Below are positions 1,745-9,977 of a stretch of 29,917 bases of DNA, one piece after another; the first letter of the stretch is position 1, and each line of letters begins with the position of its first letter. The position numbers and the translations under genes are program-made. The notes below the pieces were generated by a model. It saw only the letters and a list, made by a program, of their open reading frames with translations, was not told the DNA's origin and made no database searches. This DNA is from a virus. The DNA lies in IMG/VR virus record IMGVR_UViG_3300043392_000027, positions 1 to 29,917 of that record. One strand, written 5' to 3'.

Positions 1745-1872
1745 TTGTTCTCTCCTCGGCTCACAATCATGTAACAAGTCGGATATTTGTCGTCAAACGT
1801 GTGGCAGTAATCTTCGCCGTTTATCGAAGCACCAAGCTGTTCGGCTTCTTTACCGCATCTAGCACACTTCAC
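1741..1872 (-). CDS. 43-residue zinc-ribbon-like protein
   Basis: A very short gene starting at GTG 1872, overlapping the upstream stop as GTGA, and ending at TGA 1743-1741, which overlaps the next start in the same way. The product begins MKCARCGKEAEQLGASINGE and has CxxC at residues 3-6, then CH at 23-24 and C33, a plausible single zinc site. It ends in RGENK, the same tail as its two neighbours. The perfect fit between two GTGA overlaps, with GGAGAGAAC before each, is strong evidence that it is real. Function unknown; such ribbons may bind nucleic acid or protein. Confidence 0.8.
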   Translation of the reverse strand: MKCARCGKEAEQLGASINGEDYCHTFDDKYPTCYMIVSRGENK

Positions 1873-2177
1873 TTGTTCTCTCCTTCTGACGGATTGTCTA
1901 TTTCATCCTCGACATTTTGGCTACCTTTGATAAGCGCAAGCAACCGTTTGCCTTCCTCTCCCTTGATACGACAGTCACAAGTACCGTCGTGACTAAGCCA
2001 CTCGCTTATTTCTTTTTCAAGTAGCTTGGTGATGCGTTCACGCTCAGAATCACGCTCAATCTTTGCCATCATGTTCCACACACGTTCACGCTCTGCATAA
2101 AGCCAACGGTCAAAACCTTCAACATCCTGCGTCAAAGCAAACCATGCCGAACGAACATCATCAGTACTAACAGTCAT
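1869..2177 (-). CDS. Small ERERI-family phage protein (paralogue 1)
   Basis: 102 residues, starting MTVSTDDVRSAWFALTQD. Contains FDRWLYAERERV and later SERERITKLLEKEISEW, so the charged helix appears to be duplicated within this copy. A CDC motif follows, then ALIKGSQ and a C-terminal GENK. The ATG overlaps the stop of the FmdB-like gene (ATGA). It is the first and longest of three paralogues in a row. The mainly helical, highly charged make-up suggests coiled-coil or partner-binding behaviour. No enzyme motif is visible and the family has no assigned function that I know. Confidence 0.8.
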   Translation of the reverse strand: MTVSTDDVRSAWFALTQDVEGFDRWLYAERERVWNMMAKIERDSERERITKLLEKEISEWLSHDGTCDCRIKGEEGKRLLALIKGSQNVEDEIDNPSEGENK

Positions 2178-4647: not shown

Positions 4648-5052
4648 TTAGAAGGGTGCGTCATCGTCGGCAGGTACTTCAAGGCCAACAGCAAGTGATG
4701 ACTGTGGCCCCATTGGTCCCTGGTTACGGTGCTTGACAGTGATTGACTCGACCCAGTCAGTCTGGATTGAACGCCCATCTGATCCATCGCGCTTCTTGAA
4801 CTCTTTCTCAACGATGGTTGCTGTTACTTCAACAAGGTCGCCCTGTCGAATGTCTGTTGAGGTCTTGTCTCCCCACAAAGTCACGCGAATCTTTGAGACG
4901 TCACCGGTCTTGGAATAAGTACCTGATGTTTTGTCCTTCTTGGCGTGGTTGACGTACACGGGGAATTGCAGGTTTGATGCACCGTTAGGTGTAGTTCCTG
5001 CCTGTGGTTCTGCAACGACGGAACCGGTGAAGGTTGCTTTGATCTGGCTCAT
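4648..5052 (-). CDS. ssb: Single-stranded DNA-binding protein
   Basis: 134 residues with an OB-fold SSB pattern: an N-terminal strand ATFTGSVVAEPQ, core strands with VSKIRVTLWGDKTST and DLVEVTATIVEKEF, then a flexible Gly/Pro/Gln linker and the acidic tail DDDAPF. In bacterial and phage SSBs this tip recruits host replication and repair proteins. It coats single strands made during replication and by the recombination exonuclease. Its position between the regulatory and replication modules is usual. The ATG overlaps the previous stop (ATGA). Confidence 0.92.
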   Translation of the reverse strand: MSQIKATFTGSVVAEPQAGTTPNGASNLQFPVYVNHAKKDKTSGTYSKTGDVSKIRVTLWGDKTSTDIRQGDLVEVTATIVEKEFKKRDGSDGRSIQTDWVESITVKHRNQGPMGPQSSLAVGLEVPADDDAPF

Positions 5053-5339
5053 TTTGTTTCCTTTGTTTTGATGTTGTGTTGGTGTTTGTTTGGTTTCAGG
5101 TGAAGCTCACGACGCAGCTCTGCGACTCGTCCTCGGCTTATTTGAAGCCGGAGTGACATTTCCCCATCCGTTGCACCATTTCGGTGCAGAATGGCTACTC
5201 TGTCGCGTGTAGTCAGTTGTCTGGAGAACTGTGAAAGAACAGCTCCTCGAAGCCACTGTGAGAGACTCATGCCTCTGGCCTGTGCTTTCGTTTCCAGGAA
5301 CCAGACATCTGCAGGTTCAAGGTCAACAGTTACTTTCAT
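5049..5339 (-). CDS. DNA-binding protein with RHH-like and HTH-like parts
   Basis: 96 residues from ATG 5339, with GGGAGG about 9 bases upstream. A TTG further up would destroy that spacing. The N-terminus MKVTVDLEPADVWFLETKAQ, followed by GMSLSQWLRGAVL, has the strand-helix-helix pattern of Arc/CopG ribbon-helix-helix proteins. The second half (RVAILHRNGATDGEMSLRLQ, then ISRGRVAELRRE) resembles a helix-turn-helix. It is probably an early or middle-gene regulator, or helps SSB and replication. It is coupled to its neighbours by ATGA overlaps on both sides. Confidence 0.65.
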   Translation of the reverse strand: MKVTVDLEPADVWFLETKAQARGMSLSQWLRGAVLSQFSRQLTTRDRVAILHRNGATDGEMSLRLQISRGRVAELRRELHLKPNKHQHNIKTKETK

Positions 5340-5701
5340 TTTTTGACCTCCCAATATGGGACGTGACCTTCTGGCCAGTTACCTCGGTCATGTTCGTCAC
5401 AAGCAACCCAGCCATGCTCAGCAAGCCACGCAGTTGATGTTTCAAACTGCTCTTTGTGCTGTTCAGCCCATGTCCCTGGTTTTGCCCAGCTATTGAGCCA
5501 GAATCGCTTGCTACACCAACCGTTGAACACAATCCCGTGGTTGGTGGAGTCCAAGTAGGCGTTACGCGACCATTCACCACAATGTGTGCACTGTCGTGGC
5601 TTAGAAGCCTCCTCGCGAGCCTTTTCAGCTTCTTCCTCAGCTAACTGCTGGGCTGCTGCTTTTTCCTGGTCTAGCTCGTCAAAGATTGATAACTGATTCA
5701 T
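5336..5701 (-). CDS. Zinc-finger protein with N-terminal clamp-binding-like motif
   Basis: 121 residues. It opens with MNQLSIFDELDQ, whose QLSIF resembles the bacterial beta-clamp-binding pentapeptide (QL[S/D]LF). A charged Ala/Glu-rich helix follows (residues 13-34). Then comes CTHCGEW with later Cys (GWCSKRFW) for a zinc site, and an aromatic C-terminal half rich in Trp/His (EHGWVACDEHDRGNWPEGH). The likely role is in replication or repair through contact with the host clamp, but this is inferred from one short motif. Both ends overlap neighbours by ATGA. Confidence 0.65.
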   Translation of the reverse strand: MNQLSIFDELDQEKAAAQQLAEEEAEKAREEASKPRQCTHCGEWSRNAYLDSTNHGIVFNGWCSKRFWLNSWAKPGTWAEQHKEQFETSTAWLAEHGWVACDEHDRGNWPEGHVPYWEVKK

Positions 5702-5889
5702 GCTGCAGTCCTCCTTTGGTGAGACTGGTCAAACAACCTCGCCAAATCAGGACGTCCATGACGCCACATCAACTTGTTCAAAGCGTGAGTAGTGCGACCA
5801 ATAGCCTCGGCAATGTAAAGAGGATGCATGCCACCATCAAGAAGCCACTCAACCTCAGCAATAACCTCTGCTGCAGTCATCTTTGCCAT
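5698..5889 (-). CDS. Small helix-turn-helix protein
   Basis: 63 residues, starting MAKMTAAEVIAEVEWLLDGG. The centre, MHPLYIAEAIGRTTHALNKL, fits a helix-turn-helix of the small replication-associated or regulator type, followed by a basic tail (HQRRTAA). The ATG overlaps the initiator stop (TGATG), so it is translated right after the replication initiator. It may act as a DNA-binding partner of that protein or a regulator of the early unit. No specific family identified. Confidence 0.65.
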   Translation of the reverse strand: MAKMTAAEVIAEVEWLLDGGMHPLYIAEAIGRTTHALNKLMWRHGRPDLARLFDQSHQRRTAA

Positions 5890-6650
5890 CAGTCATCACC
5901 TCGAGCACAACGATCACAAGGCATCGGATAGCCAACATGCATCTGACACATGCGAGCCTCAAGCTCCTCCTTTGTTGGAGGCTGAGGAACAGCAGGCTTC
6001 GTGCGTTGACCTTCAGGAGTGTTGATGTAGTCACGACGCATCCACACCTTCCACGCCTTCTCCCAATCAAGCTTCCGAGCGTTAGCCCCACCGGCTGAAT
6101 GCCAGTAATCCATGAACTGCTCGGTAGCTGTCTTGATGTCCATACCAGGAACACTTGTTGAAGCCCAAGACGCCATCGAAGAAGTAATTGTGAAATCTTC
6201 AGGGAGTCGGTGAGCACGTTTCGTGCTCTCAACACCTTTAGGTGTTGAGGGATGGGATGGGATGGGATGGGGAAGGCGAACTTCTTCCGAAGTTCTGTTT
6301 ATGTTCGCCCGAACATTTGTCGAACTTGCAGACTTATTGGCACGAACACGAGCCATCCTGGTCCGCGCAGCCTCACGCTCAGCCATGACAGATTCACGAG
6401 TCGGCTGGTAATCATGCCAGTCATTGAACTCGAAACCATCCTCAGCCTCATGCCACAAACCTGCATCAACGAGACGAGGAGCTGTAGAAGCCCCACCAAA
6501 GGCAGAAATGACATCGTTAGGCACGTATCCATCAGTGAGCTGTTGAGCACACCAGGAAAGAGACCTGATCCATAGGCCCATAGCCTCATTACCTGCTTGC
6601 ATCACCTTTGGGTGAAAAGCCAGGTTGTCATCAACACGTCCCCAAGCCAT
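5889..6650 (-). CDS. Replication initiation protein (DnaT/replisome-organiser-like)
   Basis: 253 residues. The N-terminal ~100 residues (MAWGRVDDNLAFHPKVMQAG through FEFNDWHDYQPT) match the winged-helix start of phage replisome-organiser proteins. A basic low-complexity linker (about 85-150) follows. The C-terminal block QFMDYWHSAGGANARKLDWE and KAWKVWMRRD is a DnaT/primosome-like segment that can bind single strands or load helicase. A terminal CQMHVGYPMPCDRC may bind zinc. It lies between the recombination genes and SSB, as expected. The linker-coding DNA (6212-6316) carries a candidate origin, the same arrangement as lambda O. No helicase gene is seen, so host DnaB is presumably loaded. 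Confidence 0.8.
   Translation of the reverse strand: MAWGRVDDNLAFHPKVMQAGNEAMGLWIRSLSWCAQQLTDGYVPNDVISAFGGASTAPRLVDAGLWHEAEDGFEFNDWHDYQPTRESVMAEREAARTRMARVRANKSASSTNVRANINRTSEEVRLPHPIPSHPSTPKGVESTKRAHRLPEDFTITSSMASWASTSVPGMDIKTATEQFMDYWHSAGGANARKLDWEKAWKVWMRRDYINTPEGQRTKPAVPQPPTKEELEARMCQMHVGYPMPCDRCARGDD
6212..6316. other. Candidate replication origin inside the initiator gene
   Basis: Four perfect inverted repeats occur within 105 bases: 6212-6228 (GAGCACG-TTT-CGTGCTC), 6228-6249 (10-bp arms CTCAACACCT/AGGTGTTGAG, 2-base centre), 6278-6295 (GAACTTC-TTCC-GAAGTTC) and 6301-6316 (ATGTTCG-CC-CGAACAT). Between the second and third lies a GGGAT tandem array (6248-6272) with five runs of at least three G, capable of forming a G-quadruplex on the + strand. 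The block sits in the linker region of the initiator, where lambda-type phages place their origin. Origin function is inferred, not demonstrated. Confidence 0.6.
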
Positions 6651-7000
6651 TAGTTCACCTCCCGAACGTCACGACCATCGACAACAGTGAATCCGCCCTG
6701 GTCATCGAGCAGACGCCACTGGTCAAAGAACTTGAAATACACTGCAGTCCGGTATGGGTCCTCCCACTGGTGCAATTTGACCCCAAGGAGTCGTGCACGA
6801 GGCATGAGGTTGTCCTCAAACTGTCCGTTGCAGACATAGCAAGCAGTCAGATAGTTAGCTAAGTGATCGCGCAGCTTTGAACCGCCAGCTTGACGGTTTT
6901 TCCTGTGGTGAATCGCCAGGCCAGATGTTGTTCCGCACCAGACGCACTGCTCACCATCACGAACAAACGCAATCTTCTTGTTTTTAGGAGAAACAGCCAT
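6650..7000 (-). CDS. HNH endonuclease, early region
   Basis: 116 residues from ATG 7000 (TGATG overlap with the previous stop). A CVWC pair (residues 19-22), LAIHHRKNRQAGG (H31-H32), N49 and CYVC (54-57) form a zinc-stabilised HNH core. The C-terminal 50 residues (HQWEDPYRTAVYFKFFDQWR) lie outside the nuclease core. Unlike the HNH at 423-728 it sits in the recombination/replication block, so a role in recombination, replication or host DNA attack is more likely than in packaging. A homing function is possible, though it is not inserted in another gene. Confidence 0.85.
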   Translation of the reverse strand: MAVSPKNKKIAFVRDGEQCVWCGTTSGLAIHHRKNRQAGGSKLRDHLANYLTACYVCNGQFEDNLMPRARLLGVKLHQWEDPYRTAVYFKFFDQWRLLDDQGGFTVVDGRDVREVN

Positions 7001-7359
7001 CAGCTCTGCCCCCATTCAAGACGCATGATTGGAGAAAGTGAGCGACCAATCTCAAGACGGTCACGCAAAGCCTTCAGTTTGTCCTTAGCCTCCTGCAAAG
7101 CAAGCTCTGCTGCTTTCCATTCAGCCTCAAGCTGTAACGTCTCCAGCTCACACACAGCGCGACGCATGTCAGCTGTCAAAGGCTTACCGTCAGCATCAGC
7201 TTTGTGCGTAAACATTGCAGTATTGAATGCACGCTTGTACTTCAAACGAGCCTCAACCTCTGCCTCGCCAAGAGGACGAAGAGTCTCAGTCATTACGTCA
7301 ATTTCTTTGCCAATAGTTGCCAAAGTAGACAGCACAGATGCAGGAGTTAGGTTGCTCAT
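7000..7359 (-). CDS. Coiled-coil protein beside the annealing protein
   Basis: 119 residues, almost entirely helical, with long heptad-like stretches (CELETLQLEAEWKAAELALQ, then EAKDKLKALRDRLEIGRSL). No enzyme motif. It begins at an ATG that overlaps the annealing-protein stop by ATGA. Small coiled-coil proteins are common directly after Rad52/Erf-type annealing proteins in phage genomes, where they may act as partners. That association is the only basis for a functional guess here. Confidence 0.65.
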   Translation of the reverse strand: MSNLTPASVLSTLATIGKEIDVMTETLRPLGEAEVEARLKYKRAFNTAMFTHKADADGKPLTADMRRAVCELETLQLEAEWKAAELALQEAKDKLKALRDRLEIGRSLSPIMRLEWGQS

Positions 7360-7928
7360 GAGTCACGCTCAATCTCGTCGTTTCCAAGAGCTACCTGCTG
7401 CTCAACACCTTCCTGAATATCAGCGTGAGATTGCTCAGTTCCAACCAAAGTGGCCTTAACAAGCGCAGTGAGCTGGCCCTTGTTGTACAGGCTCAAACCA
7501 AACTGGTCGCCCAAAGCAATCGCTGCACGCTTGATGCTCAAAGAAATAGCAGACTTGTATGCCAAATCATGCCCACCAGCTCGAGTCTGGTTCTGGGCAT
7601 CACCAGTAGATCCGTTTTCGAATACACAGACGGTCTGGCCTGCCTCGTTACGGACAGTCAAACGAACTAAAGCTCGGTAACACACATCCCATCGGCCTGT
7701 CATTTCACCCGAATCTTTGATGCGTGGTTCTTCAAACACCAGGTCTACTTTGATGACTTCAATATCGAAGTTTCCAAAGCCAAACATGCGGCTGAAATGG
7801 GCCACGATGTCCTGCTGTGAAACGTGTGAGTGTCCCTGAGCCTGAAGGACTCGCTTGGGGTTTATTGGCTTGAGTAATTGTTCAACCTGCTTGGCAGAGA
7901 ACGTGCCACGGTCATCAGAAAACATCAT
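7356..7928 (-). CDS. Single-strand annealing protein, Rad52/Sak-like
   Basis: 190 residues. The central part reads HVSQQDIVAHFSRMFGFGNF, then a beta-rich region and GGHDLAYKSAISLSIKRAAI with LGDQFGLSLYNKG. This set is typical of the Rad52/22 superfamily of phage annealing proteins (Sak type), which form rings that pair complementary single strands. It overlaps the exonuclease gene by 14 bases and would use the 3' overhangs that nuclease produces, as in lambda Red. The Gln-rich C-terminal tail after residue ~155 varies in the family. The annealase identity is strong; the exact subfamily is less certain. Confidence 0.88.
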   Translation of the reverse strand: MMFSDDRGTFSAKQVEQLLKPINPKRVLQAQGHSHVSQQDIVAHFSRMFGFGNFDIEVIKVDLVFEEPRIKDSGEMTGRWDVCYRALVRLTVRNEAGQTVCVFENGSTGDAQNQTRAGGHDLAYKSAISLSIKRAAIALGDQFGLSLYNKGQLTALVKATLVGTEQSHADIQEGVEQQVALGNDEIERDS

Positions 7929-8823
7929 TACCTTCTTTCAGTGCGGAGATACGAAGAGAAGGCTTGGACTGTGAAACCTTCACGAACTGTTTGAACAGGT
8001 CTGGCTGTGCAGACTTGAACGCAGCAGAGTCAAATCGTTCAGTTGGTTTAGGAGTTGACAGGCTCAATTTCGCTGAGCTTGTTTCAATGGAGAATGAGTC
8101 ACGGTCACCAATGCGTGAACGAATCAGTTCATCCAGTTCGGCCATGATTTCTACATACTTGTCACGTGATGCACGAGCAGTGATGTATTTATTGACTAGC
8201 TCTTCATAATCTGCAGGGTCATCTTGCTCAGCGTCAGAGTCCAAGAAAGCCAGGAACTCGTCAGCTACCGCAACCAGTTCCTCAATACGTTTCTGGTCAC
8301 GTTTGATCCATTCCTTCTGCGCAGGAAGCGGAGTGAAATCCTCATGCTGTTCCCACACATAAAGACATTCCATGCAGTCATCACCTATGACATACATTTG
8401 GAACTGAATTTGGTCGTAGTAGCCAGCTTTCACAAAAGCTTCAGAGCCTGGTGAAACGTCATGCTTGCTGGTTTTTATTTCACCAACAAGGACAATTCCG
8501 TCACTCAGATATAAAGCATCAGGTGTAGCCAGGTGACGCTTGTTTTCCTCAGCGTGATAGAGAACATCTGAGCCAAAGAATCCCTCTGGCTTGAGCATGG
8601 TTTCGACCAGGAAAGGTTCACGCTCAAGGCCCCACTCAGTGAACTTGTTACCAAAAAAATCACGTTCACCACTGCGCTTTGATGCTGCAAGGTTGCTCCA
8701 GCCATTCTTGCTTTTGGCTAGATCACGAACTTCAGTTGCTGTTACACCGGTACGACGAGCGTGGAGCCAGCTGACTTCATCAACGTTCTTGTCTGCAAGT
8801 GCGCGTTCATAGATTGTGCTCAT
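7915..8823 (-). CDS. YqaJ/lambda-type recombination exonuclease
   Basis: 302 residues with the PD-(D/E)XK pattern of YqaJ viral recombinases. An N-terminal WLHARRTGVTATEV block is followed by GLEREPFLVETM, ATPDALYL (D102), VGEIKTSK (E115, K117) and YYDQIQFQMYV (Q138, Q140). These enzymes degrade the 5' strand of a duplex to give 3' single strands for the annealing protein. The C-terminal third is a helical region with a long Asp/Glu-rich stretch (FLDSDAEQDDPADYEEL). The gene overlaps RusA by 4 bases upstream and the annealase by 14 downstream, forming one recombination operon. Confidence 0.9.
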   Translation of the reverse strand: MSTIYERALADKNVDEVSWLHARRTGVTATEVRDLAKSKNGWSNLAASKRSGERDFFGNKFTEWGLEREPFLVETMLKPEGFFGSDVLYHAEENKRHLATPDALYLSDGIVLVGEIKTSKHDVSPGSEAFVKAGYYDQIQFQMYVIGDDCMECLYVWEQHEDFTPLPAQKEWIKRDQKRIEELVAVADEFLAFLDSDAEQDDPADYEELVNKYITARASRDKYVEIMAELDELIRSRIGDRDSFSIETSSAKLSLSTPKPTERFDSAAFKSAQPDLFKQFVKVSQSKPSLRISALKEGNDVF

Positions 8824-9176
8824 GCGATTTCCTCGATTCGTAGTTCCATGAATGCGACCGCGTTAGGGTCATAAACAATCACCGGCATGCTTTTGCGCAT
8901 TAGCTCTGGGGTATCGTCTGGCACAATTCCTGCATCAACCAGGCCGTCACACATTGCTTTCAGCGTTGGCACGATGTTGTCTGCATCACGTCGACGCTTG
9001 TCGTTGACAATCCAGTTCAAAGAAACTGCACATGCTTTCATCGGTGGGATGTGCGCAGCCTTTTGAGCAGTCAAAGCACGAACGTCTTTTGTGAGGAGTG
9101 CTTTCATACGCCAATGCAGACGCTGGTTTGCTGTAATTGGTGGTCGTTCGTATTCGAACTCAATGCTGTAGGTCAT
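8820..9176 (-). CDS. rusA: RusA-like Holliday junction resolvase
   Basis: 118 residues. The segment NDKRRRDADNIVPTLKAMCD, continuing GLVDAGIVPDDTPEL, is the RusA signature; its acidic residues (RRRDADN and PDD) bind metal for junction cleavage. RusA resolves four-way junctions made by recombination and can remove branches before packaging. The N-terminal PPITANQRLHWRMKAL is the expected opening block. It is the first gene of the recombination group and overlaps the exonuclease gene by ATGA. Length is normal for the family. Confidence 0.92.
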   Translation of the reverse strand: MTYSIEFEYERPPITANQRLHWRMKALLTKDVRALTAQKAAHIPPMKACAVSLNWIVNDKRRRDADNIVPTLKAMCDGLVDAGIVPDDTPELMRKSMPVIVYDPNAVAFMELRIEEIA

Positions 9177-9647: not shown

Positions 9648-9934
9648 GCGAGGTCCCACACAGCCAGTACGTGGTGACGAGAAGAAGGACGCTCAGAAGG
9701 CTTGTAGCCAACACGCTTGAGGTTGAATCGCTTAGCAGCGTGCAAGATAACTGCACCAATGGCGTTACCGTGGTGAGGAGGAGTAGACAAGTTTGCCCAC
9801 ACATCATCAGAAGTGAATGGCCCCTTGTTCGCTAAGGTTTCAATCACCTGGTATGCCTCTTCTTTCCATGAGTCATCGGCTTTTTGTAGTACCAATGCGA
9901 TACCCTCGTCTCGAAGGGTTTTTCCGTTTTGCAT
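9644..9934 (-). CDS. Winged-helix-like phage protein, unknown function
   Basis: 96 residues. A helical N-terminus (TLRDEGIALVLQKADDSWKE) is followed by GPFTSDDVWANL, IGAVILHAAKRFNLKRVGY and a short C-terminal strand HHVLAVWDL. This helix-helix-strand order recurs in a small family seen in many phages, mostly in replication or early regions, and looks like a winged helix. AAAGG lies 7 bases before the ATG. No function is established. A role in DNA binding during early replication is a reasonable guess. Confidence 0.7.
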   Translation of the reverse strand: MQNGKTLRDEGIALVLQKADDSWKEEAYQVIETLANKGPFTSDDVWANLSTPPHHGNAIGAVILHAAKRFNLKRVGYKPSERPSSRHHVLAVWDLA

Positions 9935-9950
9935 GATTTTCCTTTCATCG

Positions 9951-9977
9951 CCCTCCGGTTGCCGCCGGAGGGTTTTT
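9951..9977 (+). terminator. Intrinsic terminator shape on the + strand
   Basis: CCCTCCGG, a 6-base loop TTGCCG, then CCGGAGGG followed by TTTTTCTTTG: a classical rho-independent terminator for + strand RNA. All genes around it are on the - strand, where the hairpin has no following T-tract and lies in the leader of the 96-residue gene. It may end an antisense RNA, block leftward read-in, or act as mRNA structure on the - strand. Confidence 0.6.

Follow-up and report, generated by a model that had tools for sequence, protein, structure and literature searches.

Does the replication initiator gene of a virus also hold the origin at which its product acts? The question arises from a lone virus contig of 29,917 bases (IMG/VR virus record IMGVR_UViG_3300043392_000027; hereafter, the window, meaning the whole stretch analyzed), in which four perfect inverted repeats (arms 7, 10, 7, and 7) and a GGGAT array are packed into 105 bases of coding DNA, just as the first-pass annotation had described. 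Based on comparisons with relatives, this region is very probably the phage replication origin, placed inside the initiator gene as in lambda, with dyads as the putative initiator sites. The order, position, strand, and DNA-level constraint of the dyads, array, and hairpin, together with the covariation between dyad class and initiator residue 99, are established at the level of sequence comparison.

The initiator gene and its product

The initiator matches the phrog_2447 'replication initiation protein' profile (E 2.3e-42) over residues 1–169, which cover the N-terminal domain and the linker. A Pfam search up to E 0.1 gave no family match for this protein and did not place it in the lambda O protein family, and a Foldseek search of its model against the PDB found no structure at E 0.001. 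The AlphaFold2 model, built from 30 sequences (mean pLDDT 86, pTM 0.48), consists of the parts given in Table 1. Mean pLDDT drops to 52–56 over residues 111–140, a low-confidence linker between two folded parts, which agrees with the low-complexity linker that had been read from the translation. From its position and the phrog names, we infer that the C-terminal helical part is the predicted helicase-loading part. Genes for SSB-like, HNH, Rad52-like, YqaJ-type exonuclease, and RusA-like proteins (replication/recombination) lie at 4648–9176; no phage DnaB helicase gene was noticed near the window initiator, whereas several relatives have one nearby.

Initiator relatives were drawn from phage records, viral contigs, and actinobacterial genomes. 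Single-protein queries against viral and genome contigs found no relative of the initiator, and an alignment query was needed; relatives are present in 656 phage records, mostly Mycobacterium and Gordonia. About 140 relatives share the element, which reads, 5′ to 3′ on the coding strand, half-site dyads, a CCC array with a period of about 5, and, in about half of the cases, a hairpin. The same plan of dyads, a run of G-triplets, and then often a small hairpin thus appears to be common to many viruses of soil actinobacteria.

Table 1 Features of the initiator gene in the window, and loci in which the array lies outside the initiator frame
Feature	Position	Strand	Details and basis
Replication initiator gene, 253 aa, phrog_2447	5889..6650	-	Profile match
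N-terminal folded domain, residues 1–84, winged-helix-like	6399..6650	-	AlphaFold2, pLDDT mostly >90
Long basic helix, residues 85–112	6315..6398	-	AlphaFold2 and residue-99 covariation
Codon of the specificity residue Met99 (basic helix)	6354–6356	-	
Disordered linker, residues ~113–146, holding the DNA element	6213..6314	-	AlphaFold2
C-terminal helical part, residues 157–217	6000..6182	-	AlphaFold2, profile match
Outlying GTTCG half-site	6321..6325	.	11 bp from the half-site of the next dyad; sequence, half-site class
Dyad 1, GTTCG-GG-CGAAC core, coding strand ATGTTCGGGCGAACAT	6301..6316	.	Arms 7, loop 2
Dyad 2, coding strand GAACTTCGGAAGAAGTTCG	6277..6295	.	Perfect repeat at 6278–6295, arms 7, loop 4; conserved across the clade
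G-run array GGGATGGGATGGGATGGGATGGGG, five G-runs	6249..6272	+	CCC array on the coding strand
Post-array hairpin, coding strand CTCAACACC-TAAA-GGTGTTGAG	6228..6249	.	Arms 10, loop 2; conserved feature
Second hairpin GAGCACG-TTT-CGTGCTC	6212..6228	.	Arms 7, loop 3
Propionibacterium phage B22 (L285)	1866–2056		Initiator frame ends before the array
Other frame-ended loci: L060, L067, L072, L073, L099, L102, L168, L223, L232, L254, L267, L272, L282			

Inverted repeats and G-run array in the window

Counting inverted repeats with arms of at least 7 and loops of up to 8, 1902 of the 1988 sliding 105-nt windows (step 15) contained no such repeat and none contained more than three. Neither 2000 dinucleotide shuffles of the region nor 5000 synonymous recodings of the same protein ever yielded more than two, and the recodings kept the C/G-run motif in 1.9% of cases. 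The array fits the sequence definition of a G-quadruplex (four or more GGG runs, no loop longer than 7), as do those of 62/77 relatives; here it has five runs and loops of 2, and it is the sole motif of this type in the 29,917 bases, whether short or long loops are allowed. GC skew along the window has no turning point at the element and gives no origin signal. Outside the element, the window has just one inverted repeat whose arms reach 8 or more with a short loop, CCCTCCGG-TTGCCG-CCGGAGGG, at 9951–9972.

The repeats had been taken for hairpins throughout, which does not hold: dyads 1 and 2 are GTTCG dyads, and the repeat directly behind the array is a different, separately conserved hairpin. 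Dyad 1 was also found in L031, and the second hairpin was not seen in the near relative L026.

Dyad classes follow residue 99 of the initiator

The 130 nt that precede the array hold more six-mers of a few half-site types than the synonymous expectation. When the count is limited to half-sites past codon 110, half-site class is best predicted by residue 99, which sits midway along the basic helix (z 37.5; next column 17.8), a score that overstates the significance because the shuffled labels ignore the tree. The better guide is given by pair counts and repeated class changes: the tree of residues 1–90 shows about 28 changes of half-site class, and of the closely related pairs, 267 differ in both class and residue group, 182 share both, and 77 are discordant. 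Residue 99 is Met in 34/35 genes of the GTTCG class, Lys or Arg in 28/30 genes of the GTCCC class, and Gln in 16/25 genes of the GTRAC class; in the GCAAG class (13 genes) it is mostly Gly or Arg. From this covariation, the dyads are most likely initiator sites. Because dyad class follows residue 99, dyads 1 and 2 of the window can be regarded as the equivalents of iterons. The earlier proposal of hairpins and a G-rich array rather than iterons is borne out for the G-run array, which is conserved, and needs correcting for the repeats, which are not of one kind and do not replace iterons.

Selection on the DNA is stronger than on the peptide, as the first-pass annotation had suspected. In the clade of the window, the same-codon excess is +0.44 over the dyad and +0.26 over the array vs +0.03 and +0.05 in the N-terminal domain and the C-terminal part, respectively. 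An excess of synonymous conservation in relatives had been named at the outset as the test that an origin at this place had to pass, and it was found on both the dyad and the array. The exact dyad pattern occurs in 18 stretches of bacterial genome contigs, and of the three of their genomes that were searched with phrog_2447, two matched.

Comparison with lambda and a model of origin opening

The lambda origin sits in gene O and comprises an AT-rich tract and, next to it, four iterons, which are imperfect inverted repeats to which O binds as dimers (PMC7466680, PMC5043065). The candidate origin of the window resembles it in lying in the linker of the initiator gene (residues 113–146), between the DNA-binding and helicase-recruiting parts (roles that are predicted here), and in having repeated candidate binding sites that are inverted repeats, with the proposed opening region beside them. 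Together with the conservation of array, dyads, and hairpin and the covariation of residue 99, this placement supports an origin inside the initiator gene. Unlike in lambda, no AT-rich tract adjoins the iteron equivalents; the long tract is replaced by the G/C-run array, followed often by a hairpin in a short AT-rich stretch (58% AT in the approximately 15 nt behind the array vs 37% in the gene). Other differences are that the half-site family has several interchangeable classes and that Pfam does not place the protein in the O family. RepA of extrachromosomal mycobacteriophages is likewise an actinophage initiator with a helix-turn-helix part, whose origin is suspected upstream of or within its gene and for which no repeat motif was found (PMC7157519); however, it is a different protein, and its role is in prophage maintenance. 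Among open-licence papers, we found no description of a G-run array or hairpin in such an initiator linker and no mapped origin for phages with a phrog_2447-type initiator.

We propose that replication would begin in three steps. In the first step, the initiator, probably as dimers, would read the GTTCG dyads through the Met99 region of its basic helix and build up on the DNA of the linker; this reading of the dyads is well supported by the covariation, and binding itself is what we infer from it. In the second step, the strain of assembly and negative supercoiling may open the duplex beside the dyads, where the G-run array and then the short, hairpin-bearing AT-rich stretch lie. In the third and more speculative step, the GGG array and the hairpin would fold on one strand, holding the strands apart so that the C-rich strand is available for priming and for the C-terminal part of the initiator to load the helicase. 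The linker peptide would be unstructured so that the gene can carry the origin DNA. If a single helix residue does set which dyad is read, origin and initiator could switch specificity together within one gene, and residue 99 would provide a testable one-residue specificity code.

Conservation and periodicity of the array

Among 77 non-redundant initiators of at least 200 aa, a set that excludes genes found by exact array patterns, 62 have at least four CCC runs with spacers of 1–3 nt on the coding strand and none (0/77) has the array on the opposite strand, i.e., G-rich on the coding strand. The motif occurs 5 times per 335 kb of flanking DNA. The array was present in 61/76 genes as observed, vs a mean of 7.6 (maximum 16; 300 trials) after synonymous recoding and a mean of 11.8 (maximum 21) after permuting each gene's own codons. 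Gene-blind scans of viral contigs for two perfect arrays returned 156 contigs among the matches listed; in 88 contigs, again among the matches listed, the array lies in an open frame of the initiator family, and in 87 of these it is C-rich on the coding strand. The array motif is missing from about 20% of relatives; in cluster E and L mycobacteriophages, the initiator is short and has no array.

A base-agnostic scan found a period of 5 in 104/141 genes, a share that is inflated because a large part of this set came from exact array patterns. This periodicity is not a codon-position effect, because 5 and 3 share no factor. In period-5 arrays, departures from the consensus amount to 0.7% at the C phases vs 7.0% at other positions, both rates being diluted by the same choice of genes.

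Two readings of the array compete for the third step. The first is a class of origins opened by DNA structure, in which a G-quadruplex and an adjacent mini-hairpin replace AT-richness and one residue sets dyad specificity; we put this forward tentatively. The second accepts the origin but takes the array for a 5-nt repeat recognized as a single strand by the initiator, the helicase, or a primase filament, with no quadruplex formed and the hairpin serving as a signal for priming or loading. This variant of the third step, which falls within the confidence that we place in the origin itself, is a serious rival that we rate somewhat short of an even chance, because period 5 dominates (232/294 steps in addition to the gene share above) and some members are CC-only. 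These members (L035, L038, L301, and L314) have CCACT, CCAAG, or CCAGT pentamers in the same place, which hold the period and lose the GGG runs, and a strict need for a quadruplex is disfavored because they cannot make one of three layers. However, the spacing is not strict, with a period of 6 in 51 steps and of 4 and 7 in 10, and CCC is far more constant than the spacers, which argues against a simple single-strand repeat. The element offers a natural setting for testing whether an AT-rich unwinding element can be replaced by a G-run array and a hairpin.

Similar arrays were seen in other proteins. L131 carries a CCCAT array at ~9750–9850, preceded by its own short repeats, in the linker of a different type of initiator (DUF1376-like by eye), possibly a convergent use of the same element. 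In L183 and L203, an array on the opposite strand lies in the linker of proteins with an HNH motif by eye.

A hairpin with restricted loops behind the array

Within 42 nt behind the array, and picking perfect stems of at least 6 by the stem alone, we found a hairpin in 70/132 genes vs 7.5% of control windows (median offset 2 nt). The stems are unrelated between genes, and the loops TAAA (15), T..C (24), and T.C (11) account for 50/70 hairpins vs 37/940 control hairpins. The mirror loop types G..A and G.A were absent among the 70; phage Ignacio, with a GTA loop on the coding strand, is an exception. The TAAA loop is common to the window and L026, with stems of different lengths. In the previously unused genomes L297, L299, and L302, hairpins with TAAA, TAAC, and TTC loops lie behind the arrays, L297 being a nearly identical bacterial-genome counterpart of L026 and therefore not independent of it; the loop in L304 is AGA, and an array is missing from many of the weaker matches. 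A second kind of sequence behind the array, e.g., TCTATTGGTTACGTAGAGGGGG, was seen in L286, L295, L296, L057, and L069; its short stem encloses a long loop that contains GGTTAC, and G-runs follow.

In DNA, hairpins with a GNNA or GNA loop and a C-G closing pair are unusually stable, and 35/70 post-array hairpins have TNC or TNNC loops on the coding strand, i.e., GNA or GNNA on the G-rich strand. DNA energy parameters favor the G-rich-strand hairpin for the T..C class only (by ~0.4 kcal/mol, in 24/24) and show no such preference for T.C or TAAA loops; therefore, they do not settle which strand folds. The early-promoter hairpins of phage N4, which extrude under supercoils made by gyrase, need their closing pair and a loop with a 5′ G and a 3′ A for extrusion in supercoiled DNA (PMC4496689). 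The GNA/GNNA half of the post-array hairpins is similar to these, the N4 loop being G...A with C-G closing. In contrast, the N4 hairpins are promoters for the virion RNA polymerase, an enzyme of which no counterpart is known here, and the window hairpin, although closed by C-G, has a TTTA loop on the G-rich strand and is not of the GNA/GNNA type.

A transcription terminator was considered for the window hairpin and rejected, because no T-run lies behind it on either strand. More broadly, the dyads could be an operator for initiator expression and the hairpin could act in the mRNA, with the origin elsewhere. The dyads, which look initiator-bound by their covariation, would suit an operator too, and some hairpin loops would be stable as RNA, namely C(UUCG)G and C(UACG)G. 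Others, C(UGAC)G among them, are not known to be stable as RNA, which counts against a function in the mRNA, as do the missing T-run and an Rfam search without a match. It would also be unusual for an operator to lie midway along a coding region or at its 3′ end, and the origin on which lambda-type initiators act has this same location (PMC7466680). We consider an autoregulatory or RNA element improbable, and the origin reading is preferred.

Arrays outside the initiator frame

In 14 loci (Table 1), the initiator frame stops 32–102 nt before the array, and the half-site repeats and the array persist past the stop codon. Since half-sites and array remain where they are untranslated, and since synonymous conservation peaks on the dyad and array, the element works as DNA. 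A purely protein-level explanation, in which the linker is a proline-rich spacer and the repeats are by-products of slippage and codon choice with no function of the DNA, can appeal to the disorder of the linker, to the Pro-rich peptides that most arrays encode, and to the ability of slippage to create perfect short tandem repeats, but it is strongly contradicted and very improbable, given these 14 loci, the constancy of CCC while the encoded peptides differ (HPIPS, DPTRP, VPSRP, VPVPV, PEPEP), the destruction of the array by synonymous recoding, and the conservation of dyads and hairpin, which it leaves unexplained.

The element, as a putative origin acting through its DNA, provides a rule for locating the likely origin by sequence in many phages with this initiator. 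The frame-ended phages seem to have a short initiator and a predicted origin outside the gene. For example, gp53 of Propionibacterium phage B22 has 121 codons and is followed by a 190-bp gap that contains a (CCCGTA)n array. Several of the remaining contigs from the gene-blind array scans are members with a broken initiator frame, and in several frame-ended loci the stop codon sits inside the repeats themselves.
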